From contig JAQBPX010000014.1 of NCBI GenBank assembly GCA_028287305.1, forward strand, positions 186,001 through 250,000: a DNA stretch of 64,000 nt, written 5' to 3'. Both the position numbers and the translations under genes were made by a program. The notes below the pieces were generated by a model. It had not been told where the DNA came from and did no database searches. It was given only the letters and a program-made list of their open reading frames with translations. This DNA is from Gemmatimonadota bacterium (GTDB taxonomy: Bacteria; Gemmatimonadota; Gemmatimonadetes; Gemmatimonadales; Gemmatimonadaceae). Below, piece after piece: positions 2,760 through 24,580 of this stretch. Every line of letters starts with the position of its first letter. Position 1 is the first letter of the stretch.

Positions 2760-2796
2760 ATGAGCAGTTGCAGTTGCTGTTGTGTTTGTGGTCGAG

Positions 2797-5159: not shown

Positions 5160-6899
5160 TCAGCGCGACGTCAACGACCTCGTCATCCCAATCGTCAGGA
5201 ACGATTCATTGAACGCCGGCTTGGTCGCGAACGCCGAGTACGCCGTGTGCCGCGCGCCGATCGCGAGCTTCGTCTCCCAGAACACCGGATAACTCGCATC
5301 CGCCTTCATCGCCCTCACAGACCGACCCGACGAGAACGTGTTCGACACGTTCCCCGTGAGCGCCAGCCGCTGCCCCGCCAGCAGCCTCGCGCGGCCCGTC
5401 ATGCCGAGCAGCACGTTGTTCTCGCCCTTCTGCCCGCCCGTCGAGTTATTCACGATCGACAGCGACGGCCCCGCCGAGACGAACTGGTTCACCGAGGTCG
5501 TGATGCTCGCCGTGATGTTGTTGCCCGTGCTGCCGGGCACCACCGACCCGACCTCGTGATCCTTGGAGTCCTGGAACGCGTACGTCAGGGAGATCGCAGT
5601 CGGTCGCGCGAACACCGTCATCCGATTCGTGATGGTCGACGTCACCGCCATCGTGTGCATGTCCAGTCCGGGGGCGGCGTCCGACTTCGTGGTCCCCGCC
5701 GTGCTCAGCACCACCGTGTTCGCCATCATCAGGCTCGGCGTGATCGCGAACACCGCGCTCATCATGCTGTTGTTGCGGTCCGTGCGCGCCACCTTCTGCC
5801 CCAGCAGGTTGTTCGCCTGCGCGCGCGTCTCGGCCGCCAGCGAAATGCGGTTGCTGAACAGGTTCACGTTGCCGCCCACGTTGAATCCGCGGCGATCATT
5901 GATCAGGTACGGCAGGCCGAGCGACGTGTAGCCCGCGCCGATGTCCTCGTAGCCTCCGCGGATGCCGAAGCGCTGGAAGCGCAGCTCGATCTGGCCCTGC
6001 ATCGCCTTGTCGCCGCTGGTCGAGAGGCGCAGTGGCTGCAGCGTGGAGACCGGGCCGAGCGCGCCAACGCCGGCGTCGCCCACCGTCTGGCTGCGGAGGT
6101 CGCGCGTGAACAGCGACGCGCCCACCTGCCCCGTGAAGTGCAGGATGTTCTGGAAGAAGCCCAGGTCCGTCTCCATCCCCACCACCAGGTTCTCCTGCGG
6201 GCTCGTCGCGAAGCGCAGCGGGTCGGCGATGAGCGCCGTGTCGGTGAATGTCGTGTCGATGTTCACCAGGTGCTGCGAGAGGGAGTTCGGATCGTCCTTC
6301 GCCTTGAGCATCGTGAGTGCAAAGTGATTGCCGCCGTCGCGACCGATGCCGAGCGACGCGCCGAACATCGAGCGCTTGTAGGCCGCGCCATCGCCACCCT
6401 GCGCGACCACGCGCTGCGCCTGACCGCCCTGCACGGAGAACTGGAAGATCCCCGGCTTGAGGTCCACGCCGAAGCCGCGCAGTCGCGTGCCCTGCAGCGT
6501 GTAGCTGGAGTAGTCGCGCGCAAAGTCGCCGATGTGGAACGTCGCCCACTTGTACGTGGGATTGAGCCCCACCTGGTCCACGCTCTGGCGCACCTGCGAG
6601 CCCTCACTCGACAGCAGCACTTCCGTGCCCATGCCCACCTGGTTGAACAGCCGCAGCGAGGGGCTCATCGAGATGCGCCAGCTCGCGCCCGGGCGGCGCT
6701 GGTCCACGCCGCTGCTGTGGCGATAGAGCTCGCTCGATACCTGCACCGCACCGCTCGCGGTGACCGGGAGCCGCTGCCAGATGGAAGGGCCCGCCACCAT
6801 CGGACCGGGCGTCGCCGACGAACCCGGCAACACCTGTCCCTGCAGGCGCGCGCCGGCCAGCAGCACGAGGGATGCGACCACGATCGCGCGACTCTTCAT
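5160..6899 (-). CDS. Predicted outer-membrane beta-barrel protein, last gene of giant-protein operon
   Basis: A 579-residue exported protein with signal peptide MKSRAIVVASLVLLAGARLQGQ. The remainder alternates short polar turns with aromatic and hydrophobic strands (for example YKWATFHIGDFARDYSSYTL, FGASLGIGRDGGNHFALTML), as in outer-membrane barrels. No catalytic motif is visible. ATG 6899 overlaps the stop of the TPR gene in an ATGA junction. Within the operon it may be the membrane anchor or export pore for the large exported proteins encoded upstream, but that role is inferred from context. No specific family was recognised with certainty. Confidence 0.7.
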   Translation of the reverse strand: MKSRAIVVASLVLLAGARLQGQVLPGSSATPGPMVAGPSIWQRLPVTASGAVQVSSELYRHSSGVDQRRPGASWRISMSPSLRLFNQVGMGTEVLLSSEGSQVRQSVDQVGLNPTYKWATFHIGDFARDYSSYTLQGTRLRGFGVDLKPGIFQFSVQGGQAQRVVAQGGDGAAYKRSMFGASLGIGRDGGNHFALTMLKAKDDPNSLSQHLVNIDTTFTDTALIADPLRFATSPQENLVVGMETDLGFFQNILHFTGQVGASLFTRDLRSQTVGDAGVGALGPVSTLQPLRLSTSGDKAMQGQIELRFQRFGIRGGYEDIGAGYTSLGLPYLINDRRGFNVGGNVNLFSNRISLAAETRAQANNLLGQKVARTDRNNSMMSAVFAITPSLMMANTVVLSTAGTTKSDAAPGLDMHTMAVTSTITNRMTVFARPTAISLTYAFQDSKDHEVGSVVPGSTGNNITASITTSVNQFVSAGPSLSIVNNSTGGQKGENNVLLGMTGRARLLAGQRLALTGNVSNTFSSGRSVRAMKADASYPVFWETKLAIGARHTAYSAFATKPAFNESFLTIGMTRSLTSR

Positions 6900-7627
6900 G
6901 GGTGCTTCTCCGCAAGGGACTTCGCCACCGAATCCGCTTCCCTGCTCCTGCCCAGCCGGTGCAGCAGGTCCACCTCGTGCTCGATCACGACCTTCGAATC
7001 GGGCTTCAGTATTCGCAGCCGCCTGATGCGCGTCAGCAGGTCGTCCATCGTGCCGTCCGACTCGTGCAACCGCACCAGCGCGCCATACGCCGTGGCCGAA
7101 TCAGGCGAGAGCTCCAGCGCGCGCGAGAAGCCACGCACCGCCTCCGCCCTGTTCCCCGCCGCCATCTGCAGCTGCGCGTACTTCACCTGGAGGTTCACGT
7201 CGGTCGCATCCATCCGCAGCAGCCGCGCATACCCCTCGATCGCCTCGGGCAGCCGGCCATGCTTCTCGGCGACGTCCGCCGCGTATCTGTCGAGCAACAG
7301 TGCGCCCGGGTAGTCGCGCTTCAGCAGGTCGAGCTCGTGCTCGCCCCACGGCCGCTGGAACACCACGGTGTCGAGCAGCGCCGTCATCTTCGCGGTCGCC
7401 TTGTCCTTCGCATCCAGCGTGGCACGCGCAGACTTCACGGTCTTCGACGTCTGCTTCGTGGACATCACGCCCAGGCTCGCCTGCTCCAGCTTCGCCACCT
7501 CGCGTATGGACGTGCGCAGAGCGCGCGCGAGCCGCAGGCTGTCGCCCCCGGCCACCGGCTGCGCATGCACCGGCGCCACCGCGAACGACACGACCGCGAC
7601 GAATCCGCCAACACGCCATGCACGCAT
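6896..7627 (-). CDS. Exported tetratricopeptide-repeat protein
   Basis: A 243-residue protein with signal peptide MRAWRVGGFVAVVSFAVAPVHAQ. Residues from about 130 form TPR-like helix pairs (EAIEGYARLLRMDATDVNLQ, AEAVRGFSRALELSPDSATA). TPR proteins scaffold protein-protein contacts, so it probably acts in the periplasm as an assembly partner. The start at 7627 makes an ATGA overlap with the stop of the Fn3 gene and places the signal peptide at the N-terminus. A longer frame to 7843 overlaps the Fn3 gene and is rejected. Its stop overlaps the barrel gene start in the same way. Confidence 0.8.
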   Translation of the reverse strand: MRAWRVGGFVAVVSFAVAPVHAQPVAGGDSLRLARALRTSIREVAKLEQASLGVMSTKQTSKTVKSARATLDAKDKATAKMTALLDTVVFQRPWGEHELDLLKRDYPGALLLDRYAADVAEKHGRLPEAIEGYARLLRMDATDVNLQVKYAQLQMAAGNRAEAVRGFSRALELSPDSATAYGALVRLHESDGTMDDLLTRIRRLRILKPDSKVVIEHEVDLLHRLGRSREADSVAKSLAEKHP

Positions 7628-9621
7628 CACTGAATCGGCACCCGCACCGCCGGACTCGGCGCACTCGAGTTGTGGCTGATGTCCACGGCGCGCACGCGAT
7701 AGTACATCGTGGCGCTCGCTCCCTTGTCCACGAACGACAGCACCGAGATCGGCTTCGGCGTGACCAACTCGAACACGCCGGTGGGCAGGCTGCTGCGATA
7801 CACCTGGTATCCCGCGAGTTCCGGGCTCACCACGCGTTCCCAATGCACGGTCACGCCGTCCGCGGCCTTGCGCGCATACGCATTGCGCGGCGCGGGCGGC
7901 GGCGTGGCGGTGCCGAAGGTCACGCTGTCCTCCGCCGGCACGCTCTTGTTGCCGGCCGAGTCCACCGCGATCACGCGGTAGTGATAGGTACGGCCGTGCT
8001 TCACGGCGGTGTCACGCGCCGCGCGCTCGGCGCTCACCTTCACGAGTGCCAGCGGCTTCACCGTGCCAGCGCTGTCCACGCGCTCTACCACGTACCTCAC
8101 GACGTCCAGCGCGGGGCTCGCGCTCCACCCGAGGTCCACGCGTCGCCCCAGCACGTTCTCGGCGTGGAACCCGGTGGGCGCGCCAGGGGGCACGTCGTCG
8201 GGAATCACGATGTCGGCCAGCGCGGCGGGCGACTCGTTGAACGCGCCATCCAGCGCGATCACCGAGTAGTAGTACTTGTGGCCGGCCACGAGCCCGATGG
8301 AGTCGGGGCCGATGTCGTGGATGGTGGCCACTGCGAGCGGCTTGTCGGTGATGCGTGACATGACGCTCCTGCTTTCCCCGCGCAGCACATAGTAGCCGAT
8401 GACGTCGGGCGACGTTGACGCGGTCCATGAGACCTGCAGCGTGTGCTTCGGCGCAAGCGCCGCCTTCACGAGCGTGGGCGCGGTCGGCGGGTCGCGATCG
8501 ACCGGCAGCATGGACACCGGGTTGCTCGGCTTGCTCTCGTTGCCGCTCGAGTCCACCGTGACGATGTGGAAGAAGTACTGCGTGCCGCCGGATAGCGTGC
8601 TGTCGGTATAGCTCGGCTTCTCGACCGCGATCAGCTTCGTGGTGATGCGCAGGTACGGCTTGTCGAGCCCCTTCGAGCGCTCCACATGGTAGCCGGCGGC
8701 ATCGGGCTCGGGGGCCTGCGGCCACACGAGCGACACGCGCCGGTCACCGGCCTCGCCCACGAGCTTGAGCGCCGACGCGGGGGGAATCTTGTCGCGCGCG
8801 ATCACCGACACGGGCGCGGTGGGCACGCTCTCGCGACCCACGACGTCCACGGCGCGCACGGTGTAGCTGTACGACACGCCGAGCGGCAGGTCGGGATCCT
8901 TGAACAGCGCCGGCTTGGTCTCGTCACGCAGGAGCGGGCTCGGCGTGACGAGCACCGGCGCCGTGGAGCCCGTAGCGCGATAGACGTTGAAGCCGAAGGC
9001 GAGGTCGTCGGAGTTGCCGCGATGCGCGGGATAGCTCCAGGTGAACTCCGCCGTGCGATCGGTAACCGCCGCGCGAGGGGCGGTGGGCGGTGCGACCGGA
9101 ATGTCCGCGATGTGGATGCGTGCCTGCGCCGACTGCGACGTAGGCTTGCCCTGCAGGTCCACGAACTCCACGCGATACGCGTAGTCGCCGCCGGACCTCA
9201 GTCCACCGGTGGTCCAGAGCCTTCCGAGCATGGTGGACACGCTCGGATAGAGGAAGCCGAGTACGCCACTCGCGAACTGGTCGGCCTCGAGCTTGTGCAA
9301 CATGGCGCCTTCGTCGGTGACGTCGAGCGCATGCATCACCGGCTCGCGGTCCATGCCCAGCATGCCCGCGGCGATCATCGGGTTTCGCACCGGGCGTACG
9401 GGCTCGGGCGTGAGCAGCGTCATGGCGCTACCGACGGGTCCCCCGTACACGTTGTAGCCCTGGAAGCTGGGCGGCGGCGTGAGGAGGTAGATGCGGACGG
9501 AGTCGCCCTTCGCCACGGCGAGGAGTGGCGGACGCGCGGGAGCCTGCGCGCCCGCGATGCGCGCTCCCGCGGCCAGTGCCGCGAGCGCGGTGATGCGCCC
9601 CAACAGGCGACGGCTCACCAT
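7627..9621 (-). CDS. Exported protein with multiple fibronectin type III-like domains
   Basis: A 664-residue protein with signal peptide MVSRRLLGRITALAALAAGARIAGAQ. At least four Fn3/Ig-like repeats of roughly 95 residues follow, marked by recurring DxxPPxAP linkers and YxYxVxAVDxxGNES strands (SYTVRAVDVVGRES, FFHIVTVDSSGNES, YYSVIALDGAFNES, YRVIAVDSAGNKS). Such domains form extended surface or adhesive rods. ATG 9621 overlaps the stop of the giant gene by 7 bp. The repeats resemble the C-terminal Ig/Fn3 region of the giant protein, which suggests the two act in the same structure. Confidence 0.85.
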   Translation of the reverse strand: MVSRRLLGRITALAALAAGARIAGAQAPARPPLLAVAKGDSVRIYLLTPPPSFQGYNVYGGPVGSAMTLLTPEPVRPVRNPMIAAGMLGMDREPVMHALDVTDEGAMLHKLEADQFASGVLGFLYPSVSTMLGRLWTTGGLRSGGDYAYRVEFVDLQGKPTSQSAQARIHIADIPVAPPTAPRAAVTDRTAEFTWSYPAHRGNSDDLAFGFNVYRATGSTAPVLVTPSPLLRDETKPALFKDPDLPLGVSYSYTVRAVDVVGRESVPTAPVSVIARDKIPPASALKLVGEAGDRRVSLVWPQAPEPDAAGYHVERSKGLDKPYLRITTKLIAVEKPSYTDSTLSGGTQYFFHIVTVDSSGNESKPSNPVSMLPVDRDPPTAPTLVKAALAPKHTLQVSWTASTSPDVIGYYVLRGESRSVMSRITDKPLAVATIHDIGPDSIGLVAGHKYYYSVIALDGAFNESPAALADIVIPDDVPPGAPTGFHAENVLGRRVDLGWSASPALDVVRYVVERVDSAGTVKPLALVKVSAERAARDTAVKHGRTYHYRVIAVDSAGNKSVPAEDSVTFGTATPPPAPRNAYARKAADGVTVHWERVVSPELAGYQVYRSSLPTGVFELVTPKPISVLSFVDKGASATMYYRVRAVDISHNSSAPSPAVRVPIQ

Positions 9622-12600
9622 GAGTACTTCTTCTTGATCGCCTTCGGCATCTTCATCCTGACCATGGTCGTCGCGCTCGTGAGCCCCGCCTTGTTCACGC
9701 TGCGGAAGAACACGTAGTACTCGGTGTTGGGATCGCGATTCCAGCCATAGGGCTGCTGCTCGTAAATGACGACGTCCGCCGAATTGCCGGTGACGTGCGC
9801 ATTCTGCATGTTCGTCACGTTTTGCCAGCCCATCATGCCCTGGTCATCCGGCGAGAAGCCCATGGCGACCTCGGTGCGGTCCACGCCACTCTGCGCGTCG
9901 GCGCCGAAGGTGAGCACGCCGGCGATCTTGCCCGGGTCGGTCTGCACGGGATGGTACCAGTAGTCATCCATCTGCCATTCATAGACGTAGTCCACCGGCG
10001 CTTCGCTCTTGTCGGTCCAGGTGGGCGCAGAGGGCGGCGTGCGGTCGAGTGCGATCGGTCCGGAGCGCACGGCGGCGCCGGCCATGCCGGCCCCGTTCAC
10101 CGCGCGAACGTCCACGTCGAAGCTGCCGTCGGTCGGCGCGGTGTACACCTTGGTCGAGCCGTTGTCGGCGGTGAACTGGATCGTGCCCGCCGCGGGCCAG
10201 TCCTGCACCACCTTGCCGTCCTTGGTGATGCGAACCTGGTAGCCGGAGATGGAGGACTCCGGGTCCTCGGCCTTCGAGTTCATGACGACGTAGAGCTCGC
10301 CCTGCTGGGACGAGGTCGTGCAGACTCCCGGCGAGGTCGGCAGCGTCGGGTCGGGCACCTTGAATGGCCCGTACTGCGTCACCGTGACATTCCCGGCGTA
10401 ATCGCTCCCGGCCAGCATCAGGTACACGGGATCCGTGTAGCTGAGCGGATAGCCCATGATCGTGATCGTGTTCCCGTTCATCTGCGGCGCGTAGATGTTG
10501 GTCCACTGGTTCGAAACCACGGTATCCGGCTGGTTCGAGAGGTGCCACATCCAGTACTGCACGCCCGACTCGTCGGTGACCTGCGGAAGCTTCACGGTCA
10601 CCGTGGGATAGTTGAAGTTGGCGTTGTTGTTGTTGTTGAAGTTGTTGTTGAAGTTCCCGCCCCACCCGCCGCCGTTGTTGTTCTGCTGCTGTGAGTAACA
10701 GCTGCTCACCGTGTTCGCGAGCGTGGTGGGCGTGGGCGGCGCGACGACCGGCACCAGCTCGATGGGGCCGAGCACCGGCGGCTTCGCATCGATGCGAAGG
10801 CCGCCTGAGCTGCCGATGGCGCTCACGATCCCGTTGCCGTTCGTCGCCTTCACCGACACGAACACCATCTTGCCGTTCGAGATGTTGATGTCGTTGAGCT
10901 GCCGGTCGGTGCGGCCGCCCATGCTCTCCCAGTTCGAGATGTCGGTTCCCTGTGCGGTGGTGCCGACGGCGAGCTGGTACTCGGAGATGCCCGACTCGTT
11001 GTCGTACGCGAACCAGTTCGCCTTCACCTTCGACCCCGGCTTGATCCACTGCTCGCCGGTGGGACCGCGACCCGCACCGTTGAACGTGATCTGCGGCGCA
11101 TTCGGCGGCGTCTTGTCGCCGGCCGAGCTCACCGTGGTAGTGGTGGTGCTGACCTTCGTGATGTTCGAGACATCAGCCGTTGGCGCCCCCTGCTGCTGCA
11201 CCTCGAGCCCCGACGGATAGCTCACCGAATAGCTGGCGCTCACCATGTTGCGGTAGCCAAGGCCACCGCGCACCGCAGCCGAGAAGCTGTACTGGTTGTT
11301 GAGCGATGAAATGGGCGTATCGAGGTACGACCGCAGGCCCACGAACGTGCCGGTACCGCCGAGCGAGAAGGGGGCCCCGCCGTTGTCCCAGTAGAGGTAT
11401 TCCGTGATTCCATCGGGATGATAGCCCGACCAGCTCGCGGTGATCTCGGAAACCCAGCCCGTGGTCTTCACGGCGATCGTCACCGGATTGACCGTCGGCA
11501 TCTTCATCCCGCGCAGCAGTTCCGCCTTGCGGGCGGTGGCCGCCGCGGCGCCAGCGCCGGTGGGGTCGAGCGCCAGGTAACGGTCGTAGAGGTCGTACGT
11601 AAGTCCCGCCAGCGACGCCTGGTTGAGGAAGATCGCGTCGGCGGCCCACGTCAGCTTGTTGTGCGACTCACGAATCGGCGTGAGCTTCGCTGCCGCCTGC
11701 TGCTGCACGCTCGCGATGTTGCTGTCGAGCATGGCCAGCTGCGCCTTGGCGCCGGTCTCCGGCACGTTGTAGTAGAGCGTCATGCCGCTCTTGAGGTACT
11801 GTGCCGACAGGAACGCGACGGAGGTGTTGTTACCGTAGGAGGCGCCCAGCGCAGTCCCGAAGTCCTTCTCCAGCTGGGGATTGCCCGTCAGCGACCCCAT
11901 CAGCTTGATGCGATTGAGCGTGCCTGTCGTGACCGGCGACAGGGTCATCGCGAAGACCTTCTGCATGGCGTCACCATTCATCCGCTGCTGGTAGATGCCG
12001 ATGACCTGGTTCTGGATGTCCGCCACGTCCGACTTCCGCCGCTGCAGGTCGGCCAGCCGCACGCGCGCCCAGAGCTTGGCCGCGCCGAGGTATTGCAGCT
12101 GCTGCGTGTAGAGCCGCTCGGTCGCGCTGCGCGCCGAGGCGTACGTCGCCATCATCGAGAGCAGCGATCCGCTCGACGCGCTGAGCGCCGACTGCACCTG
12201 CTTCAGGCTCGCGTCCTCGGCCTGCGCCTGCCGCAGCACCTCGGCGGCGAGTGCCTTCATCGCCCCGTCGTGCGCCTCCATGCTGCTCACCGCCTGCGAC
12301 GCCGTCGACTGGTCGATGTCGAGCTGCGGGCCGCTGATGAGTGTCTTCACCGTGTCGCCGTTCACCACGCTCGTAGTCGCAACGGGCGAGGCGAACGAGA
12401 CGTTGCGCACCGGGTTGCCCGGTGCGTCGGGCAGCTTCACCTCTGCCACCTGCGCAAGCGTGGCGTTGATCGCCCGGATCTTCGGCTCCACATCCGACTG
12501 CTGCCGCTGCGACGATGCCCAGAGGTCGTCGGCGTTCTTCTTCAGCGTCTTGACCTGCGCTGAATCCGTGACCGGCGCGCCCTCGTTGCGCAGGAAGGTG

Positions 12601-15600
12601 GCATACCAATCGTAGTAGCCGTAGTCGTTCCTGCCGCCGCCGAGCGCGAAGCCGAGCTTCTCGGAAAACATCAGGACGCTGACGAAGTTGAACCCGCTCG
12701 TCTTCGCCAGGGCGCTGAGGCCGGTGTACACGGCGAGCATCTCGCTCTCGCTGAGCTTGAGGTCGAAGGACCTGACCTTCGCCTCGTTCATCGCCGCCAT
12801 CACTTGCGTCTTGGACGTCTCCATCTCGTCGCGCACCTGCTTGGCCTTGGCGAGCGCCGCGTCGAGCGAGGCATCGCGACCGAGCCCGCCCGAGAGCCCG
12901 CTCGACTTTGCCGCCGCCCACACGCTTCCGCTCCAGCTGCCCACCCAGAACACTGACACGCTCAGCGTCCCCACGCAGTAGAGCGATGGTATGGACCCGC
13001 CCGATCCGATCAGCGCGCCCTCCAGCTGGCCGGAGGCACTCGCCGCGCCGAACAGGACGCTCACCTCCGCATGCACCGCCGCGTACGCGCCCCACGCGCT
13101 CGGCGCCGGATCATAGAACCAGACTCGTCCAACGAAGCCGCCGCTCAGCGTGATGATCTTGTAAAGCGAGAGCGACTTCTCGATGCGAAGGCCGGCGACG
13201 AAGCCCTTGGGCCCGATGAAGAAGTCCGCCTGCGCACTCTGCGTCAGGATCGACTTCCCGCTCGGGACCGGGAGGAACTCCATCTGCGCGTCGCCCTGGA
13301 TGCCCCACGCGCTCGAGCTGTAGGCGAAGAACTGCAGGCTGCCGGTCGACTTCACCACGAGGGGCTGGTCGGCGATGATGTCGATCGTGCCTTCCACGTA
13401 GCCCTTGTGGAGCCCGATCACGAGCTGCGCTCGGCCAGTAATCGTGCCGGGCTTGTCGAGGACCACGACGCTCGCATCCAGGCGGAACTGCTGGTCGGTG
13501 GCCATCAGCAATGCGCGACCCACCGCGACCTTCTTGTTGACGATCTGGGCCTGGCCGTAGAGGAAGATCGCGAAGCGCGCCGGCTCGTAGGAGAGCTGGG
13601 CGCTCGCGGCCATCGTCTGGTTCGAGGGAAACGCCGCGTCGCGCACCATCTGCAGGTGTTCGGGGCGCGGATTCCAGAAGAAGCCGCCGCCTACGCCGGT
13701 GATGGTGACAGGGCCGAGCTGCACCGCGACTGGCAGCGCGAGGAAGGCGCCGATTCGGAAGTCGTTGTCGCCCACTTCCACGGCGCCGGCGACGATGAAC
13801 TCGTTGCCGAGGACGGACGTGCCGTTGCCGGCGAACGCGATGCCTGCTCCGCCCGCCACTTCGTTATACCGCATGCTGAGGTGCATGTCGAACGTCTTCT
13901 GCACGTTCGCATTGAGGTTGCTGATCGAGAAGGTGACGTTGCCATTGCTCGCCTCCTCGTACATGAGGAGCTGGTCGATTCCGCCGGAGAAGATGCAGGT
14001 GGCGGCATTCACGTTCACGGCGGAGTTGCCGGGTTTCCCGACGCAGATCCGCCCGCCCATGTTGATGTGATAGTTGACCGCCAGGTCCTCGGTCCCAGCG
14101 CCCGTCGGCATCTTCCCCGGCGGCGGCGGCGACGACATCACCTTGATCGTGCTCGGCGAGTCCTTGTACGAGAAGCGCGCGACGTCGATCAGCAGCGCGC
14201 CGTTCATCAGCGCGAGTGTGCCGCCCTCCACCGCGAAGCGCGAGAAGTCCACGCCCTTGTCCATGATGAACAGGTCGCGGAACAGCAGCGCCGCGCCGCT
14301 GGCGTAACGGCTGCCCTTGTCGGTGGGCTTGCCCTGCGGGGTGGTCTTCGTCGCGTTGAGCGCGATGCGTCCGGTAAGGCCGATCTCGAAGGTCGTTCCC
14401 TCGGGCGCGGTGATGGCCTGGATCTGCAGCTCGGCCAGCTTCTTCACCGGCACGACGATCGTGTCGCGCATGCTGAAGTTCTGGAAGCTCTCCTTTCCAT
14501 CGAACCCGAGCCGGTAGCCGGGCTTCACGATGCCGCCCTTGTCGGTGCCGAGATAGAGGAGGTTGGCTTCCTTGGCGCTCATGTATCCGTCGGCCACCAC
14601 CTCGACTGCCCCACCGACGCCCGTTGCGTCGGGGATGTTGATCGAGATGTTGCGCGTGTGGATCGTGAAGCCGGTGATGGAGGTGAGCGTCCCGCCCAGC
14701 AGGCCGATCAGCTCATCGCGCACCACCAGTCGCTTCTGCGACAGCGTGCCGTCGGCGCCGATCTTCAAGGTGGTGGTGAGCGCGCCCGCGTCCTTCTTCA
14801 CGAGGGGCTCCGGCAGCTTCACCGCGAGCGCAGCCTCGAGGATCCCGGCCTTCACCGCGACAGCGTTCACCATGAACGCCCCCGTTCCGATCTTGAGAGG
14901 CGCCACCAGCAGGGTGCTGTCCGCGGCGATCACGGTCGCGTCGCTGCCGATCGTGAGTCCCTTGAACTGCCCCGTGACGCCGAGGAACACGATCTTGCCG
15001 GCCATCGTCAATTTGAGCACGCCGTCGGTGCCCACGGCCATCGTGGACTTGGACGACCCGCCGGCGCTCGCGGTGAACTTCGTGCCCCATGCGGTGAACT
15101 CCTGCGCCTGGTCGAGCCCGAGCACCTTCACTCCGCCGGTGCCGATAGAGAGGTCCGAGAGCGTGACGGCGAATTCCTTGGCGACCTTCGGAACCTTCCA
15201 CAGGCCATTCACCAGCAGCGTGAATTCGGTGGGGCTCACCACCAGGCGGTACGCCGGGTTGGTGCCCACCGGCGCGGGATCGAGCGTGCTCTCGCGAATG
15301 GTCAGGCTGCCCGTCGGCACGGCGCCGAGCGTGAAGCTGTTGGCGGTCTGCCGCACGGTGCCGCTATAGGGGAAGACCACCGTGGCGGCCGGCGCTCCAT
15401 TCGCCCCCGCCTGCGTGAACAGCGGCGAGCTCACCAAGCCGGAGATGAGCACCTCGCGGCTGCTGCCAGCGAAGGTCGCCTTCACGCCGATGACCGACAC
15501 GTCGAGGGCGCCGGCCTTCCCCGTCACGAGCGCCTTGTCTGCAGCCGAGTTGGTGGTGGAATAGTTACCGCGCGTCAGCGAGCCGTTGATTCCGTCCTTC

Positions 15601-18600
15601 GTGATCGGAAGTCCATCCACCTCGAGGTCCACCGCCGGCAATGACGCCGGGAGCACGATGCGCCCGCCGGCTCGCAGCGCGTAGCCCGTGCTGTCGCCGG
15701 AGTACGTGATGCGCTTGAGCTCGAGCACGTTCGCCGACAGGGTCTTCGCCGGCGCGGTTGCCTCGATGCTTCCCTTCACGACGGCCCAGGTGCGCGCATT
15801 GACTTCGACATCGAGCGCCACGTCCATGCTCGGCGCCGTGCCGAATTCACTCGAGAGCGCCGGCACGACGAGCTTCGCCTTGTTGCCGTTCAGCGCGCGG
15901 ACGATCAGGCGCTCACCGGAGCGCAGCACTTCCACGAGCGGCTTGCCCGAGGCGTCCTTCAGGTCGACGTAGGCGATGTCATCGCTCGGCAGCGACAGTC
16001 GCGCCGGAACCCTGGGCGTCGCGAACTGCGACGCCGGGTTGAAGCCGTTCGCGTCGAAGTATCCAACGGAATCGTGCGATGCAGTGGATTCGAACAGGTC
16101 CAGGCGGCCCTGCGCAACGCCAAGCTGCGTCAGCGAGAAGTGGAAGTCCCCGCTCGGGGTGGAGGCGAGGTTCGCGAGCGTGCGCTGGTCGAACAGCACG
16201 CGACTGCCGCTGGTCGCACTCGTGGTGAGGCCCTGCGCGTCGAGACGCGTGTTCTGCGACAGCTGCAGCGTGACCTGGTCGGCAGTGGCATTCGGTGCGC
16301 CTGCCGCGGTCAGGACCCAGCTCACCCGGCCGTTCGCGGCGAGAGCGCCGGAGAGCGCGAGCGCCTCGCGCACGCCGATCGATCCACTCACGGTGCCGAG
16401 CGACGGGAACGCGTAGCTCACTCCGGTCAGTTCGATCGACGCGATGCTGTCGGCGCCAACGCGGAGCGCGCCGGGCGAGCCGAACGACACGCCCGTGGGG
16501 CCGAGTACCAGCGTGCGCACGCCGAGGCCGATCGTCGAGCCGGGCGCGTACGGCCAGCGCATGCGACCGTTGATCGTGATGGCCGAACTTGGGCGGACGG
16601 TGCCGATGTTCAGCACCAGGGCGCCGCTCGATGATATGGTGTCCGAGCCCATGCCGGGCGCGCCGACCGTGGCCGTGCCGCGGAGCTGGGCCACCTGTGT
16701 CGTGGCGGTGCCATAGATCTCGAGCGTTCCGCTCGCCATGCGCATGGTCATCGGGCCCCAGCTCACCGGACAGCCGCCAAGCGAGAGGGACGACGTGGTT
16801 CCGTTGAACCACGCATCCGGCGAGAGCTTGATGCCGGTGGAGGGCAGCGCAACCACACCCGTGCTGTTCGACGCGCACCGCATGTCGGTGGGAAGCACCA
16901 GGTTTCCACCCACCGTGACGTCGGGTACGTCGCCCAGTGTACCGGTGAGCGTCGCGACCTGGAGCGCCGCGCCGGAGGTGCCGAACGCAACGAGGGCGGG
17001 CGTAGCCAGCGTGAGCGGCTCGATGGGGCCGGTGAACACGCCATTGACCATCTTCGCATCGAGCACGCTCAGGTGCTCGTTGGCGAGCGCGCCCGCGGCC
17101 TTCGGATACGAGAGCTCGACGTCCACGGAGAGGTTCCACGCGTCCGCCCGCGCACCGCCGACCCAGTCGATCACGCCACCCGTGCTTCGGAGCGCGAGCG
17201 GCCGCACGGCGAAGCCGCGCCTGGTGGTGGCCTGTGCATTCAGCTCCGGAACGCCGAAGCTCGCCACGTGGAGGCCGGCCTTGTCGAGCACCAGGTCGGA
17301 CAGGTCCTGCGGCGGCACCTGCCCGAGCGACGTGAAGCCGACGTGCGCGTCGAAGAGGAACTCGTAGTCCCAGCCCGTGGGCCCGTACGACAGCCGCGAG
17401 ATGCGCGGTGCGGTGAACTGCACGCTCACTGCACCGAGCGACACCGGGTTGATCGCGCTCGCGTTCGCCGCGCCTACCTCGGTCACGACCAGGCCGGTCG
17501 GCGATTCCGTGAGGATGGCAGGGATGCGATAGGACTGGCCGTCGCCCATCGCGAGCGCGAAGGCGCCGCGCGCGTCGAAGGAGTGCTTCGCGTTATCGAT
17601 GGTGCCGGAGATGCTGTCGAGCGCGAAGGTGATCGCACGCAAACCCTGCGCGACCGGCAGCGACGCACGCGCCGCGATCCCGAACTGGCCCGTGAGCGAC
17701 GTGGTGGCATCGAGCGCGAGCTCTGCAGCGCCCACGGCACCACGCGCTGCACCGAGCAGCTGCGGACGGCCGAGCACGCGCCAGCCATTCGTGCCGCCGC
17801 CCGTGAACTCCAGGCTATCCACCACGAACGGCACCCCCTGCTTCGCGATGTCGAGATTAGCGCGCGCCGCGACCATGCCGCTCGTCACGCTGCCGCCGGC
17901 CACTTCGACCACCACGTCCACGGTCGCGTTGAGCGGCGCAGTGGCGCCGAGCCCCGGCATGCCGAGCAGCATCGTGCGGCCGGCCCTGGTCGTGATGTGC
18001 ACGCTGCCGTCAGGATTGCGAACGGTCGTGATCGCGGACGAGTCGGAGCCCGCGAGGTCCAGGAAGCCGACGCTCTCGTTCGGAAGCCCGATGTGCTTCG
18101 GCAATCCCGCGGTGGCAGACTGCAGGCGATCCGGATGGAAGCCGCCGGCATCGATCCACGCGAGGCGCTCGCCCTGCTGCACGATGTCGATGGAGCCGCC
18201 ATTCACGCCGAAGGGCGCGACGCGGAGCGCCAGCGAATCGGAATACGACGCAGATGCGTTTGCGAACGACAGCTTCCGGTAGTTGAGCGCCGCAGGCGCG
18301 GTCCCGGTCGAGTGCAGCCCCTCGGCGCCGAGCGTCGCACCGCTCGAGAGGTCCATGCGGAGCTCGGGAGCAGCACCGACCGCGCTCCCGGCCTGCACCG
18401 CGCTCCAGGCGAGCGCGCCACCGGTCGTGTCGATCGCAACACGGAGGCCGAAGGCGTTGTCGAAGCTCGCCTGTCCGCCGATCACGGTGAAGTCGAGCGG
18501 GTTGATCGCCAGCCGGTCGAAGGTGACGCCGACGTTGTTGCCGCTCGCGAGCGCCAGGGCGCCGCGACCGTCTATGTGAAGCCCAGCTGTGTCAAGCTGC

Positions 18601-21239
18601 GCCCCCGGAACCGTGAAGTTGAGCGTGGGCGACTTGCGCGGAAGCGCGAGTGCGAACGGCCCATTGAACGTCACGCTGCCGCTCGTCATGCGACCGGCCA
18701 CCAGGTCGATGCCGATGGTGCCGCTTCCCGCCACGGGCGTGGCGCCCGGCGTGAAGTTGCCGCTCGCGGTGCCGCTCAACAGCGCTGTGGCCGAACCGTC
18801 GGTGCCGCTGTCCAGCGTAAGCGTGCCGCCGGTGACGGAGAGCGCCACGGCCGCGAGGTTGATCGCGCACGGCGTGGTGAGGCCGGTGGCCTTGCCACTC
18901 ACGCGTCCCTCGCCCGACAGTGCCAGCCACTGCGAACCGAGCGACATCGAGCGCGTGCCCGCGGCGCAGTCGAAGTACGTGGGAAGCTGATACACGCCCT
19001 GCACCTCGAGGCCCTTCTGCACCTGCAGGGAGGGCAGCAGCGTCGCGACCATCGCGCCGCGCAGCCTGCCGAGCGTCAGCGAGTTGGTGGACCCCAGATC
19101 GAGCGAGCAGTTCGCAGCCAGGTCATGCTCGGTTACCGCGGTCTCGAGCTTTCCGTCGGCCAGCGTGGCGACCGCTGGCATCGCGCCCGCGAGGCAGCTC
19201 GCCGAACTGCCAGCCAGGCCGGCAAGGGAGACGCCTTCGCTGATGGTGAAGCGGAAGCCGCCGCCGTCGGTGCTGCTCCACGGGCGCGTGAACGCGCCGA
19301 GCTTCGCCTGCGTGGCATTGAGCGTGAAGCCCCCGACGTTCAGCCCTTCGCTGCTCGCGGCGCCGTCGGCGTTCGCGAACGCCCACCCCGCGGGCGTGAG
19401 CGACACGCCGGCGAGCGCCGGCAGGCGAAGCGCCTCGAGCGAGGGAACGCGCGGCTGCGCATCCACGTGGAAGCCGAAGTCGAAGCCGCGCCCGGCGGCG
19501 TACGTCAGCTTGTCCATCTTGAGGCCGGTGAGCGCGAGCTCCAGCCAGCCGAGCTTCACCGAACCGTCACCCTCGCAACGCGGCGCGAGCCGTGTTGCGC
19601 GCGTGCCGGTGTTGTCCATGGTGAGGTCGACGAGCCCGCCGCAGTTCGCACCGCGGCTGCCGTCGAGCAGCAGCTCGGCGATTGCGGTGATCGCCGGCGT
19701 GAGAGTGCCGTTCGATGCAATGGTGAATCCGCCATCCACGCGAATGAGCCCGAGCGTCGGCGTCGGCGAGCCCGCGACGAGGGGAACCATGCGATCGGTG
19801 GCGCAGCTCAGCGTGCCCGCGAGCACGCCACTCGAGTCGGCGGTCATCGTAACGTTCGGGCAGCTGTTGCGCGTGCCGAACAGGTCCACGCTGCCGCCCA
19901 GCTGCACGTTCCCGCTCGGCAGCGACACGCGCGCCGAGGTGAGGTGCACCTGCATCGGGTCGGTGCCGAGCGTCGGCCAGCCGTTCGGGCTCTCGTTGTA
20001 GGCGCTGAGCGTCCCGAAGGGGCCGCTCGGCGTCATCTCGACGTTGCCGTCGAGCGGAATGGACTTGCCGCCAGGCAGCGTGAGCTCGGCGCGCATGTGC
20101 ATGCCGCTCGTGGCACTCCAGTTGAAGCCCTTGAGCGTGACGAACTTCCCGACAGCGATGCCGCGATCCATGTTGCCGGACAGCCCGCCGGCGATCACGT
20201 TCGCTTCCTTGGGGAGCGTACTGCGGTCGAGCGCCACGCCGTCCATGTAGACGTCGCCCGATCCCTTCACGGGACCGATCATCTCGAGTCGCGCGCGGCC
20301 GTACATCGTCACGCGGTCAGCGGTGGATCGCGAGTCGGCGCGCTTCATCCCCGTGAGGATCGCGACGCCCGGCACCAGCGTGACCGTGTCGGGCACCATG
20401 AAGCCCGTGGGGAGGCCTGCGTCGAGCGGCGCGCGCGTGAAGCTCCACGGCTCGCTGCGCTGGCGCGCCGAGGTCACGTTGCGCCCCTCGGCGTCCACCG
20501 CTTCCACGCGCCAGGCGTACTTGTTCCCTTCCTCGAGCGGCAGCCCGTCGGTGGGATAGAGCATGGTGCTCGCGCCGCTCACCAGCTGCTCGAGCAGCGG
20601 GCGGTTGGCGGCGAGTGCGACGTCGGGCGTCTGCGTCGGCAGGATCTCGACGAGGCGGAACTTGTACTGCAGCCCCAGCTCGGGCGGTGCCGTGACCGGC
20701 ATCCACTGGAACATCGGCTGCCCGACGATGACCGCGGAGCCATTCGACGGGAACACCAGCCGCGGCGGATCCGGCAGCGAGATCGTGAAGCTCTGGCTGG
20801 CGCGCGTGAGCTCCTTGCCGGAGCGGTCGACCAGCTTCACGGTGAGCGTGTAGCGGTCCTCCGGGATCTGTCCCGTGTGGACGATCTGGTCCACGAACGA
20901 CTTCACGTTGTCGGCCGCGAAGCAGTTGAGCTGCGTGCTCGAGATCACCTGCGTGGTGGGGCCGAGCGGAATCTCGTACGGTCCGCTGGTGGCGGTGGTG
21001 ATCACGCCGCGCGTCGCGCCGCGAATCTCCGCCTGCAGGTTGTACTCGGCCGGCGCGGTGCCCGTGTAGGTCACGACCATGGTCGCGATCTGCGGGTTGC
21101 GCTCCCAGTCGCTCACCCAGGGGCTGGGCAGTCCGGGCACGATGAGGTTCGCGCTGTACTGCGCGCGCGCCACACTGGCGGGCGCGACGAGCGCGCAGCC
21201 GAAGGCCAGCGCTGCTGCAAGGCGGCTGATGCTGCGCAT
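9615..21239 (-). CDS. Giant exported multidomain protein (3,874 aa)
   Basis: The signal peptide (residues 1-26, cleavage after ARA) is followed by an N-terminal beta domain (about 27-150) and an Ig-like module (about 165-275). Their pattern recalls TANFOR-domain proteins of Bacteroidetes; that match is from memory and tentative. Residues about 290-2400 are beta-rich and glycine/serine/threonine-rich with loosely repeating motifs and no catalytic signature, like a very long beta-solenoid. Residues about 2780-3240 are helical and charged (likely coiled coil). Residues about 3250-3870 are Ig/Fn3-like, with an Asn-rich linker near 3516-3544. The C-terminus is KKKYSW. It is translationally coupled to the collagen gene upstream (ATGA) and the Fn3 gene downstream. 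It is probably a secreted structural or adhesive protein; its function is unknown. Confidence 0.85.
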   Translation of the reverse strand: MRSISRLAAALAFGCALVAPASVARAQYSANLIVPGLPSPWVSDWERNPQIATMVVTYTGTAPAEYNLQAEIRGATRGVITTATSGPYEIPLGPTTQVISSTQLNCFAADNVKSFVDQIVHTGQIPEDRYTLTVKLVDRSGKELTRASQSFTISLPDPPRLVFPSNGSAVIVGQPMFQWMPVTAPPELGLQYKFRLVEILPTQTPDVALAANRPLLEQLVSGASTMLYPTDGLPLEEGNKYAWRVEAVDAEGRNVTSARQRSEPWSFTRAPLDAGLPTGFMVPDTVTLVPGVAILTGMKRADSRSTADRVTMYGRARLEMIGPVKGSGDVYMDGVALDRSTLPKEANVIAGGLSGNMDRGIAVGKFVTLKGFNWSATSGMHMRAELTLPGGKSIPLDGNVEMTPSGPFGTLSAYNESPNGWPTLGTDPMQVHLTSARVSLPSGNVQLGGSVDLFGTRNSCPNVTMTADSSGVLAGTLSCATDRMVPLVAGSPTPTLGLIRVDGGFTIASNGTLTPAITAIAELLLDGSRGANCGGLVDLTMDNTGTRATRLAPRCEGDGSVKLGWLELALTGLKMDKLTYAAGRGFDFGFHVDAQPRVPSLEALRLPALAGVSLTPAGWAFANADGAASSEGLNVGGFTLNATQAKLGAFTRPWSSTDGGGFRFTISEGVSLAGLAGSSASCLAGAMPAVATLADGKLETAVTEHDLAANCSLDLGSTNSLTLGRLRGAMVATLLPSLQVQKGLEVQGVYQLPTYFDCAAGTRSMSLGSQWLALSGEGRVSGKATGLTTPCAINLAAVALSVTGGTLTLDSGTDGSATALLSGTASGNFTPGATPVAGSGTIGIDLVAGRMTSGSVTFNGPFALALPRKSPTLNFTVPGAQLDTAGLHIDGRGALALASGNNVGVTFDRLAINPLDFTVIGGQASFDNAFGLRVAIDTTGGALAWSAVQAGSAVGAAPELRMDLSSGATLGAEGLHSTGTAPAALNYRKLSFANASASYSDSLALRVAPFGVNGGSIDIVQQGERLAWIDAGGFHPDRLQSATAGLPKHIGLPNESVGFLDLAGSDSSAITTVRNPDGSVHITTRAGRTMLLGMPGLGATAPLNATVDVVVEVAGGSVTSGMVAARANLDIAKQGVPFVVDSLEFTGGGTNGWRVLGRPQLLGAARGAVGAAELALDATTSLTGQFGIAARASLPVAQGLRAITFALDSISGTIDNAKHSFDARGAFALAMGDGQSYRIPAILTESPTGLVVTEVGAANASAINPVSLGAVSVQFTAPRISRLSYGPTGWDYEFLFDAHVGFTSLGQVPPQDLSDLVLDKAGLHVASFGVPELNAQATTRRGFAVRPLALRSTGGVIDWVGGARADAWNLSVDVELSYPKAAGALANEHLSVLDAKMVNGVFTGPIEPLTLATPALVAFGTSGAALQVATLTGTLGDVPDVTVGGNLVLPTDMRCASNSTGVVALPSTGIKLSPDAWFNGTTSSLSLGGCPVSWGPMTMRMASGTLEIYGTATTQVAQLRGTATVGAPGMGSDTISSSGALVLNIGTVRPSSAITINGRMRWPYAPGSTIGLGVRTLVLGPTGVSFGSPGALRVGADSIASIELTGVSYAFPSLGTVSGSIGVREALALSGALAANGRVSWVLTAAGAPNATADQVTLQLSQNTRLDAQGLTTSATSGSRVLFDQRTLANLASTPSGDFHFSLTQLGVAQGRLDLFESTASHDSVGYFDANGFNPASQFATPRVPARLSLPSDDIAYVDLKDASGKPLVEVLRSGERLIVRALNGNKAKLVVPALSSEFGTAPSMDVALDVEVNARTWAVVKGSIEATAPAKTLSANVLELKRITYSGDSTGYALRAGGRIVLPASLPAVDLEVDGLPITKDGINGSLTRGNYSTTNSAADKALVTGKAGALDVSVIGVKATFAGSSREVLISGLVSSPLFTQAGANGAPAATVVFPYSGTVRQTANSFTLGAVPTGSLTIRESTLDPAPVGTNPAYRLVVSPTEFTLLVNGLWKVPKVAKEFAVTLSDLSIGTGGVKVLGLDQAQEFTAWGTKFTASAGGSSKSTMAVGTDGVLKLTMAGKIVFLGVTGQFKGLTIGSDATVIAADSTLLVAPLKIGTGAFMVNAVAVKAGILEAALAVKLPEPLVKKDAGALTTTLKIGADGTLSQKRLVVRDELIGLLGGTLTSITGFTIHTRNISINIPDATGVGGAVEVVADGYMSAKEANLLYLGTDKGGIVKPGYRLGFDGKESFQNFSMRDTIVVPVKKLAELQIQAITAPEGTTFEIGLTGRIALNATKTTPQGKPTDKGSRYASGAALLFRDLFIMDKGVDFSRFAVEGGTLALMNGALLIDVARFSYKDSPSTIKVMSSPPPPGKMPTGAGTEDLAVNYHINMGGRICVGKPGNSAVNVNAATCIFSGGIDQLLMYEEASNGNVTFSISNLNANVQKTFDMHLSMRYNEVAGGAGIAFAGNGTSVLGNEFIVAGAVEVGDNDFRIGAFLALPVAVQLGPVTITGVGGGFFWNPRPEHLQMVRDAAFPSNQTMAASAQLSYEPARFAIFLYGQAQIVNKKVAVGRALLMATDQQFRLDASVVVLDKPGTITGRAQLVIGLHKGYVEGTIDIIADQPLVVKSTGSLQFFAYSSSAWGIQGDAQMEFLPVPSGKSILTQSAQADFFIGPKGFVAGLRIEKSLSLYKIITLSGGFVGRVWFYDPAPSAWGAYAAVHAEVSVLFGAASASGQLEGALIGSGGSIPSLYCVGTLSVSVFWVGSWSGSVWAAAKSSGLSGGLGRDASLDAALAKAKQVRDEMETSKTQVMAAMNEAKVRSFDLKLSESEMLAVYTGLSALAKTSGFNFVSVLMFSEKLGFALGGGRNDYGYYDWYATFLRNEGAPVTDSAQVKTLKKNADDLWASSQRQQSDVEPKIRAINATLAQVAEVKLPDAPGNPVRNVSFASPVATTSVVNGDTVKTLISGPQLDIDQSTASQAVSSMEAHDGAMKALAAEVLRQAQAEDASLKQVQSALSASSGSLLSMMATYASARSATERLYTQQLQYLGAAKLWARVRLADLQRRKSDVADIQNQVIGIYQQRMNGDAMQKVFAMTLSPVTTGTLNRIKLMGSLTGNPQLEKDFGTALGASYGNNTSVAFLSAQYLKSGMTLYYNVPETGAKAQLAMLDSNIASVQQQAAAKLTPIRESHNKLTWAADAIFLNQASLAGLTYDLYDRYLALDPTGAGAAAATARKAELLRGMKMPTVNPVTIAVKTTGWVSEITASWSGYHPDGITEYLYWDNGGAPFSLGGTGTFVGLRSYLDTPISSLNNQYSFSAAVRGGLGYRNMVSASYSVSYPSGLEVQQQGAPTADVSNITKVSTTTTTVSSAGDKTPPNAPQITFNGAGRGPTGEQWIKPGSKVKANWFAYDNESGISEYQLAVGTTAQGTDISNWESMGGRTDRQLNDINISNGKMVFVSVKATNGNGIVSAIGSSGGLRIDAKPPVLGPIELVPVVAPPTPTTLANTVSSCYSQQQNNNGGGWGGNFNNNFNNNNNANFNYPTVTVKLPQVTDESGVQYWMWHLSNQPDTVVSNQWTNIYAPQMNGNTITIMGYPLSYTDPVYLMLAGSDYAGNVTVTQYGPFKVPDPTLPTSPGVCTTSSQQGELYVVMNSKAEDPESSISGYQVRITKDGKVVQDWPAAGTIQFTADNGSTKVYTAPTDGSFDVDVRAVNGAGMAGAAVRSGPIALDRTPPSAPTWTDKSEAPVDYVYEWQMDDYWYHPVQTDPGKIAGVLTFGADAQSGVDRTEVAMGFSPDDQGMMGWQNVTNMQNAHVTGNSADVVIYEQQPYGWNRDPNTEYYVFFRSVNKAGLTSATTMVRMKMPKAIKKKYSW

Positions 21240-23320
21240 CAGCGGTGCTTGTCCGATCGTGCCGTGCTGTCAGCCGGTGCGGAGGTGCGCCGCAGCATGG
21301 CCTCGATGGCCGCCATGCGCTTGTCCTGCTCCCGCTGCTTCTTCTTCAGCTCCAGGTTCTCGGTGCGCAGCGCCTGCAGCTCGCTCACGGCGGACTTGAG
21401 CGAGTCGGTGCGGATCGCAAGCGCCTTGATGGCGATCATGTTCACGCCGTCGGCATCCACCATCGAGATGGTGGTGTCGTTCTCGCCCATGCCGAACGCC
21501 GCTCGGAAGTCCTGCGCGGTGGGTCCGATGTGGCGGATGGATGCGTTTTGCTTGCGATACTGCCAGCTGGCCAGCGACATGCCGGCGATGCCGCGCAGGT
21601 AGAACTCGGGATCCTCGGAACGGAACGCGGTCTTGGCGCGCACGTTGGAGAGCGTGGACCAGGAGCCGGAGCCCGGCGCGAGCGAGGCTCCCGTCGAGAG
21701 GTCACCGGAGGTATAGAAGAAGACGCCGCCCGCCGCGCGCGCGACGAACGAGTTCGCGTCGCCGGTGAGGTTGTTGGTGCCGCCGGATGAATTGTCGCCG
21801 AAGGCGAACCCGCTGTTGCCCGGGCTGACGTACGTCCCGAGTCCGATGGAGCCGCCGCCGGTTACGGTGAGGTTGCGGCCAGCCGCGAAGGACGCGCTGC
21901 CGCCGACTGAGTTGCTGGCGCCGAACGCGGAGGCGTTTTCGCCCGGGATGGAGTTGCTGGCGCCGGCGGAGATGCTGGAGCCCTGCGCATTCCACTGCAT
22001 CAATCCGCCGCCCTGACCACTCGCGAAGATGCCGCCGAAGTTCGCGTTCAGGCGCTTCACCGTGATGGTGTCGGCGGCGAAGCTGGCGTTTGCGTCGCGC
22101 TGGACGATCGCGTCGGCAGTGCTGGCGCTCGTTGCGCCCGCGGTGCCGGACGGGCCAGTTGCGCCAGGAGCTCCATCAGCGCCTGCGGGACCCTGGGGAC
22201 CTTGCGGACCCTGCGGGCCCGTGGATCCGGTGGCACCGGCGGCGCCTGGAGTTCCAGCGGCACCGGGAGTTCCATCAGCGCCGGCGGGACCAGCTGGGCC
22301 CTGAGCGCCCGTGTTTCCAGTGGGACCCGCAGGACCGGCCGGACCCTGTGGTCCGGTGGAGCCGGTAGCGCCAGCGGCCCCCGGAGCGCCCGGAGTTCCG
22401 TCAGCACCGGAAGGACCGGCTGGGCCGGCGACGCCCTGAGGGCCGGTGTTTCCCGTGGGACCGGCAGGACCAGCGACGCCCTGCGGACCGGTATTTCCAG
22501 TGGGACCAGCGGGGCCGGCCACGCCCTGCGGTCCCGTTGCGCCGGCGGCCCCCGGGGTTCCGTCGGCACCGGAAGGACCGGCGGGGCCGGCAACTCCCTG
22601 CGGACCGGTATTCCCGGTGGGACCCGTAGCACCTGCAGGACCCGCGACACCCTGCGGACCTGTGTTGCCGGTTGGTCCCGCGGGACCTGTGGCACCTGCG
22701 ACGCCTGGCACTCCGTCAGCTCCACTCGGGCCGGCGGGACCCGTGTTGCCAGTGGGACCGGCCGGGCCGACTACGCCCTGCGGCCCGGTGTTGCCGGTGG
22801 GACCAGTGGCGCCCGCAGGGCCAGCGACCCCCTGCGGACCGGTGGAACCCGCGGGTCCAGTCGCTCCTGCGGGACCAGTGAGTCCCGTCGGGCCGGTTGG
22901 CCCGGCAGCACCCGCGGGACCAGTGAGGCCGATCGGGCCGGCGGGACCGGCGATGCCGGTCGGACCGAACGGTCCCTGGATGCCGGCAGGCCCGATCGGG
23001 CCCGCGACACCAGCAGGTCCGGCAGGACCCTGTGCGCCCGCGGCACCCGCCGCTCCGGCCGCACCGGGCGCTCCATCCTTGCCAGCGGCGCCGGCGGGTC
23101 CCGCAGGCCCCGCATCACCGGGCAGCCCCTTGAGGTTCCATGAGAGCGCTATGTGAGCCGCCGACAGGCAGACCCCCGCGGTGCCCACATGGTAGAGTGT
23201 CCCACTGCCCGGCACGTAGCAGGCGGCGACCGTCTGGGCCTGGCTCACGCCGGCCGGAACGATCAGGAGGGCGGCGCCGGCTACGGCGACGCGAACGCTA
23301 CGCGCAATCTTCGAGTTCAT
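21239..23320 (-). CDS. Collagen-like trimeric surface fibre with peptidase S74 chaperone domain
   Basis: A 693-residue exported protein with signal peptide [29 protein letters not shown] in two parts, ending about residue 29. Residues about 65-400 are unbroken Gly-X-Y triplets rich in [16 protein letters not shown] units. Then comes a YadA-head-like stretch ([36 protein letters not shown]). The C-terminus has the intramolecular chaperone signature [14 protein letters not shown] of peptidase S74, followed by a coiled coil (about 630-680). S74 domains trimerise fibres and are usually removed by self-cleavage. Start 23320 overlaps the preceding stop (ATGA). The repetitive DNA (about 22130-23130) is prone to length change. 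Confidence 0.9.
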
Positions 23321-23823
23321 GGGATCACCTGGGACCCGCTGCACGACAGGGACGCGCGTCCCCCGGCAGCGGGGGATGTGGACGACGAGGCGGGGTTGCT
23401 GGCGATGCTCGGTGCGGCGGGCGTGCTGGCGCAGGGGCGCTTGAGGGACTGCTCGATGATGAGCAGGGAGTTGTCGATGGCGCTGACGTCGGGTGCGTCG
23501 CCGGCAGCGGCGGTGGCCTGGAACGCCGAAAGCGCACTGCGCGCGCTGGTCAGCGCCTTGTCGGCGGCAATGGCGTCGGCGGCGCTGAGGGCGCCGGAGA
23601 GCGCGTCGAGTGAGCTTTTCAGCCGGTCGGTGGCGGCGCCGGGAGTCAGGCCGAGCGTGGCGCGGTCAGCGGCGTCGGAAACGCCCCGGATGACCTCGAC
23701 CAGGACGGAGGCGGGCGGGAGGATCACCGTGACCTCCTGGGGCGCGCTGATAAGGTCGCCGCAACTCAGCAGCAGCACGCCACTGGCCAGTGCCAGGAGT
23801 GTCGATCGATTTTTTCGGGGCAA
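23317..23823 (-). CDS. Small lipoprotein, first gene of giant-protein operon
   Basis: A 168-residue protein starting [21 protein letters not shown]. The LLLSC lipobox at residues 17-21 indicates a lipid-anchored protein. The mature part is Ala/Ser-rich and helical ([27 protein letters not shown] in two halves) with a disordered C-terminus. No family is recognised. Its stop overlaps the collagen-like gene start in an ATGA junction, and it heads the operon, so it may be an assembly or anchoring factor for the fibre. Confidence 0.75.
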
Positions 23824-24434: not shown

Positions 24435-24442
24435 GAATGCGG

Positions 24443-24580
24443 GAGCTGAGGGGCTGGGGAGCTGGGGGGCTGGGGACTACAACAACAACTGCGGACCGCA
24501 ACGACAACGGCACGACGGATAGTATCCGCCGTGCCGTTCCATGCAAACCATTCGAATGCTTTTCCCCAGCCCCTCAGCTC
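24443..24580. repeat. 17-bp inverted repeat enclosing a hairpin between sigma gene and yajQ
   Basis: GAGCTGAGGGGCTGGGG at 24443-24459 is perfectly complemented at 24564-24580. The enclosed 104 bp contain another strong hairpin (24506-24538). The arms flank the whole spacer between the two genes. Confidence 0.8.
24506..24538 (-). terminator. Hairpin downstream of sigma-factor gene
   Basis: A 16-bp stem (AACGGCACGACGGATA against TATCCGCCGTGCCGTT, one mismatch) with a one-base centre lies 55 bp past the sigma-gene stop. The minus strand after the stem is only moderately T-rich (GTTGTCGTTG), so termination is likely but not certain. Confidence 0.55.

Follow-up and report, generated by a model that had tools for sequence, protein, structure and literature searches.

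A conserved gene core of the FCB phyla encodes a giant exported protein beside a predicted outer-membrane barrel

The window, a 64,000-nucleotide stretch of a Gemmatimonadota genome of 4.37 Mb, carries six neighbouring minus-strand reading frames, here called LIPO, COL, GIANT, FN3, TPR and BARREL (Table 1). All six had been listed, with their positions and lengths, in an initial annotation made from the letters alone, and all six are found in the window. Pfam matches in COL, FN3 and TPR, a lipobox seen by eye in LIPO, the full-length giant frame and a structure model of BARREL agree with the products proposed there, COL being a putatively trimeric fibre. Coupling of the genes is borne out by overlaps of 1–7 bases at the five junctions, although two of the motifs had been misread. 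ATGA joins LIPO to COL at 23317 and TPR to BARREL at 6896 (4 bp each), and the 7-bp overlap of GIANT and FN3 at 9615 is indeed present (ATGGTGA; 4 bp if the GTG start is used). At the other two junctions, where ATGA had also been read, the sequence is TGATG (1 bp) for COL/GIANT at 21239 and GTGA (4 bp) for FN3/TPR at 7627, or TGATG if the adjacent ATG is the TPR start. A YajQ gene (Pfam) precedes the operon after a gap of 110 bases and the first frame beyond BARREL lies ~380 bases off, which makes these limits of the operon plausible. A scan for promoters and terminators returned no more sites than shuffled sequence. Just upstream of the YajQ gene, positions 24441–24476 hold a short tandem repeat, GGGAGCTGAGGGGCTG. 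A single MiaB/RimO-like gene is located 3′ of the operon, and two overlapping MiaB/RimO-like frames lie directly 5′ of GIANT in a related genome (G087:C7:96208-99029). On the plus strand, an open frame of 1,509 residues (17073–21602) lies opposite GIANT; GC-rich sequence of this kind often has long antisense frames, and this one is probably not a gene.

Table 1. Genes of the operon and regions of the GIANT product, in window coordinates
Feature	Position	Strand	Description
LIPO	23317..23823	-	168 aa, small lipoprotein; TTG start; LLSC lipobox (by eye)
COL	21239..23320	-	Signal peptide, collagen-like repeats, S74 chaperone tail; collagen and S74 by Pfam
GIANT	9615..21239	-	3,874 aa, exported protein; signal peptide ends ARA-Q (by eye)
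GIANT N-domain, aa 28-272	20424..21158	-	Two Ig-like parts; remote TANFOR relative, judged by profile
GIANT beta-rich body, aa 273-2380	14100..20423	-	
GIANT beta meander, aa 2383-2763	12951..14093	-	~21 consecutive strands of 12-14 residues, alternating polarity, short turns
GIANT Ala/Gln/Lys-rich region, aa ~2780-3230	11550..12902	-	Probably helical; from composition and by eye
GIANT C-terminal region, aa ~3251-3864	9648..11489	-	Ig/Fn3-like by eye; conserved
FN3	7627..9621	-	664 aa, exported rod; four fn3 stretches (Pfam)
TPR	6896..7630	-	244 aa, exported protein; TPR repeats (Pfam)
BARREL	5160..6899	-	579 aa, outer-membrane beta-barrel; ~26 strands in structure model

GIANT is a mosaic of regions, among which the N-domain is the most conserved. 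The body contains an internal duplication (aa 598–1098 resemble aa 1302–1799), and the beta meander that follows is conserved in other phyla. Relatives that are colinear over the full length occur in Gemmatimonadota and Bacteroidota. Even larger frames exist, of 6,423–6,802 residues (G203:C10:10199-30607 and L214:263-19534); the 6,423-residue giant of L214 contains additional copies of a unit of ~750–800 residues, of which the GIANT of the window has two related examples.

Comparison with other Gemmatimonadota indicates that the operon is composed of two units, a core GIANT–FN3–TPR–BARREL and a local addition LIPO/COL. A search with a piece of GIANT (533 residues for the query against the host genome) matched 7 of 298 genomes, the host counted; BARREL matches occur in 11 of the 298, including all seven with GIANT. 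Besides the window's own, there are seven GIANT copies, two of them in G087. At every one of these seven, FN3 adjoins GIANT and is followed by TPR and BARREL, one copy being split such that FN3 extends up to a contig end and TPR–BARREL start another contig. Core proteins of the window and of these relatives share 25–40% identity, and overlaps of 4 bases or 1 base are kept at nearly all core junctions examined; at such low identity, their retention goes beyond chance. The core is almost certainly a genuine functional unit. In a tree of BARREL sequences, the window falls with full support inside a group of nine that is entirely Gemmatimonadota, which argues against recent transfer into the host from another phylum. 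Upstream of GIANT, two relatives carry a conserved opposite-strand gene that starts close to it (G183:C198:24105-26933 and G087:C38:14197-17007) and resembles, by eye, a SARP/BTAD-type regulator; a related sequence occurs in G126, and none was seen in the window.

The fibre behaves differently from the core. COL homologues occur in nine other sampled Gemmatimonadaceae genomes and stand without the core at the six loci examined, and no fibre was seen upstream of GIANT at the other GIANT loci. With homologues unlinked to the core elsewhere in the family, the collagen fibre is ruled out as a fixed core member. The functional linkage that the initial annotation had read from the coupling of all six genes is thus retained for GIANT, FN3, TPR and BARREL, which keep their order and overlaps, and is lost for LIPO and COL. 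Gene overlaps are, moreover, no ground for inferring a fixed stoichiometry. In the relatives examined, the gene 3′ of BARREL encodes a lengthy, variable surface protein whose domains are of the PKD, Big_2 (Ig) or RCC1 type; the window has no such gene after BARREL and has LIPO and COL before GIANT instead. The variable surface partner beside the core would then be interchangeable. Stand-alone collagen-like or S74-tailed surface proteins, with no link to the giant core, are found in other Gemmatimonadaceae (L096-L103 and L111-L116).

The core extends far beyond the phylum of the host. A BARREL profile scan of named genomes gave 40 loci, in Gemmatimonadota, Ignavibacteria, Calditrichota, Zixibacteria, Latescibacterota, Kryptoniota, Bacteroidetes, WOR-3, Eisenbacteria and others. 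Most loci of sufficient length read GIANT–FN3–TPR–BARREL, or have FN3 and BARREL beside a protein with the N-domain, and FN3 adjoins GIANT or its N-domain homologue at nearly all of them. TPR is found in Gemmatimonadota, Ignavibacteria, Calditrichota and Latescibacterota and is absent from most Bacteroidota loci, where BARREL is often the first gene. In 395 Bacteroidota genomes, searched independently with the BARREL and N-domain profiles at strict cut-offs, BARREL occurs in 99 and the N-domain in 90, with both in 87 (Fisher p = 7e-70, a value that overstates independence because the genomes are related to each other). Within 20 kb of 110 of the 138 Bacteroidota N-domain genes there is a BARREL gene, on the same strand in all 110, and relatedness of the genomes is by itself no sufficient explanation of so tight a placement. 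For about one-fifth of the N-domain genes, no BARREL is listed at a distance of up to 20 kb, and in 12 genomes a BARREL match comes without a strong N-domain match. At seven loci (L045, L085, L090, L161, L165, L166 and L172), the N-domain is fused to the N-terminus of BARREL. Of the Bacteroidota N-domain frames, 27 span 3,400–6,423 residues. The nine large ones tested all follow the body of GIANT colinearly, with its parts in unchanged order, and FN3 adjoins all nine and BARREL eight.

The co-occurrence in Gemmatimonadota and Bacteroidota that the initial annotation had proposed to look for does exist for core genes, with BARREL in 87 of the 90 genomes that have the N-domain. The module is carried by about one-fifth of the sampled Bacteroidota genomes and, sporadically, by members of six or more further phyla. 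That ~4,000 residues are kept colinear across phyla at 25–40% identity implies that the protein has a defined structure and that its role repays the expense. Adhesins often contain Fn3, PKD, Ig and collagen modules, and the operon might be an ordinary one for cell-surface adhesion with BARREL as a merely co-inherited porin; the phylum-wide linkage, the strict sharing of strand, the N-domain/BARREL fusions and the kept overlaps are too specific for this, and such a reading is very unlikely.

GIANT is linked to a described family through its N-domain, which is, on profile evidence, a remote relative of TANFOR. The TANFOR model (TIGR02542, curated cut-off 67 bits) does not match the GIANT of the window, and its best scores remain below the cut-off both among module giants (27.1 bits, E 8.4e-6) and in the 395 Bacteroidota genomes (51.7 bits). 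Weak matches recur, all below the cut-off, on module N-domain proteins of G087, G126, G183, G269, G346, G347 and G350. In the reverse direction, the N-domain profile recovers, over the same residues and with E-values of 1e-25 to 1e-93, all ten TANFOR proteins tested, themselves taken from the TIGR02542 search of the 395 genomes with its best score of 51.7 bits. The clusters of these ten contain an FN3 homologue in every case and BARREL in nine. In Bacteroidetes, TANFOR proteins have been described with C-terminal toxins, an enrichment of Fn3 domains nearby and a supposed export by type IX secretion (T9SS); the table of domains enriched around them has no barrel and could show only families with existing models (PMC7073777). 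For the libraries and literature searched, it holds that this set of genes belongs to no described system, apart from this known neighbour. For Gemmatimonadota, the literature search on giant proteins, TANFOR and T9SS gave PMC7073777 and general surveys only.

These links raise the alternative that GIANT is a polymorphic toxin of the TANFOR class or a T9SS substrate, that is, a stalk for delivery that leaves the cell through the type IX machinery. Besides the remote relationship of the N-domain to TANFOR proteins, with their C-terminal toxins and Fn3 neighbours (PMC7073777), it can call on SprA (TIGR04189), encoded in the host at G000:C10:81191-85930. Against it, no toxin family of Pfam or NCBIfam matches GIANT, no immunity-like gene was seen after it, the C-terminus is conserved across phyla and not polymorphic, and the sorting tail Por_Secre_tail (PF18962, TIGR04183) has no match in GIANT or in the scanned N-domain proteins. 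The distribution of SprA in Gemmatimonadota points the same way. Five carriers of the core have it (the host, G269, G093, G020 and G147) and 6 of 11 lack it (G087, G126, G183, G203, G209 and G180), in assemblies 91–99% complete, metagenome assemblies being liable to miss genes; among 14 relatives without the core, 11 have SprA. As judged from gene content, the core does not appear to track T9SS in this phylum and has no positive association with SprA, so T9SS dependence finds no support there as a general rule. Outside Gemmatimonadota, all 26 carriers tested have SprA, which makes those phyla uninformative on the question. Altogether, a TANFOR-class toxin or T9SS substrate seems a distinctly unlikely identity for GIANT. 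T9SS itself has been called restricted to Bacteroidetes (PMC4793230, PMC7073777). SprA exceeds the TIGR04189 cut-off in 16 of the 25 Gemmatimonadota genomes tested (host, G269, G093, G019, G020, G147 and ten more).

A structure model supports the barrel fold of the partner encoded at the end of the core. Modelled from 34 sequences, BARREL is a meander of ~26 strands (pLDDT 85.3), with strands that begin almost at the N-terminus of the mature protein and no obvious periplasmic domain for substrate recruitment; it could be an anchor or receptor rather than a channel. No Pfam or NCBIfam model is matched by BARREL or by four Bacteroidota barrels, despite the broad spread of the module, and BARREL is unlisted as a TANFOR partner in PMC7073777. 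The nearest solved folds are MtrB (TM-score 0.51), followed by S-layer and usher barrels. This top match would suit an MtrB-like sheath of an electron conduit, an extremely improbable reading: cysteines occur in GIANT only among the four core proteins, and a haem conduit was rejected on the absence of the CxxCH motif from GIANT, FN3, TPR and BARREL.

Modelling is less informative for GIANT. For residues 1790–2765, the model reaches pLDDT 72.9 and pTM 0.43, and its last 380 residues form ~21 strands with two faces that differ in polarity. The meander may be a membrane barrel, a lipid-binding groove or a solenoid. If it were another element that inserts into the membrane or binds lipid, the topology of GIANT would be different. 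As a homologue of BARREL it was discarded (no match in profile comparison, probability 0.1%), and the matches of the body to ApoB100 and LptD in a fold search, with TM-scores of at most 0.2 on the pTM 0.43 model, are not taken as a sign of kinship. Searches of PDB sequences with GIANT and with profiles of the N-domain, barrel and body gave nothing useful.

The main rival reading places GIANT in the periplasm. Beneath BARREL it would form an extended beta-groove or scaffold that, for example, carries lipids or braces the envelope in the manner of AsmA/TamB. The long beta-rich body with its nearly gapless conservation of length, the amphipathic strands with alternating faces and short turns on both sides, and the weak fold matches to ApoB100 and LptD are what such a scaffold would show. 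Those matches, however, come with the low scores and the poor body model given above, the signal peptide looks cleavable by eye and no inner-membrane anchor is present, Pfam detects no AsmA/DUF490 domain, and the Ig-like N-terminal and Ig/Fn3-like C-terminal domains are typical of surface proteins. A periplasmic GIANT is on balance unlikely, less so than the other rivals.

The preferred interpretation is that GIANT depends on a dedicated BARREL, which anchors or exports it by way of the N-domain; on sequence evidence we consider this somewhat more probable than its negation. GIANT would cross the inner membrane by Sec, as its signal peptide suggests. The TANFOR-like N-domain would then bind BARREL, a step proposed from the fusions and the linkage since domains found fused often interact as separate proteins. 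BARREL would hold GIANT at the outer membrane, with part or all of the giant probably reaching the surface, the FN3 rod and the TPR protein would serve as partner and accessory, and the interchangeable module would make up the outermost variable part, namely the PKD/Ig/RCC1 protein in relatives and LIPO plus COL here. Actual export through BARREL, suggested by the size of the barrel and by analogy with the two-partner plan, is possible and rather doubtful. More tentative still, and slightly less probable, is the proposal that BARREL and the N-domain define an undescribed FCB export pathway, in which a dedicated large-bore channel would recognise an N-terminal domain and deliver giant surface proteins, and TANFOR toxins too, without T9SS. 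The core looks like an undescribed way to build or export giant surface proteins, and if BARREL proves to be an exporter, secretion by this route would be of a new kind. Export of TANFOR proteins by T9SS was no more than a guess; BARREL offers them another, specific partner, one amenable to deletion tests.

Among known systems, two-partner secretion (T5bSS, FhaB/FhaC) has by analogy the same plan, a giant exoprotein that bears a recognition domain at its N-terminus, next to the gene of a dedicated barrel. The T5bSS barrel has 16 strands. The core differs in the ~26 strands of BARREL and in unrelated sequences, and Pfam finds neither POTRA domains before BARREL nor a haemagglutinin-type TPS domain on GIANT. 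Chaperone-usher barrels (PapC/FimD) and MtrB share a large bore with BARREL and are among its best fold matches, but identity is ~10%, the core is devoid of usher accessory domains, pilins and haem proteins, and no usher, chaperone or pilin is matched by Pfam in the scanned operon products. TamB/AsmA-type bridges likewise combine a long beta-rich exported protein with an outer-membrane barrel; GIANT, in contrast, lacks a Pfam match to them and has Ig-like ends besides its apparently cleavable signal peptide. Type IX secretion (SprA/PorV) occurs in the phyla of the core and its SprA in the host genome, whereas GIANT has no Por_Secre_tail and, in Gemmatimonadota, the core is not positively associated with SprA. 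The TANFOR toxins also have a large exported protein, a homologous N-terminal domain and Fn3 neighbour genes; from these, GIANT is set apart by a score far under the family cut-off and by the lack of a toxin, an immunity gene and a Por_Secre_tail.
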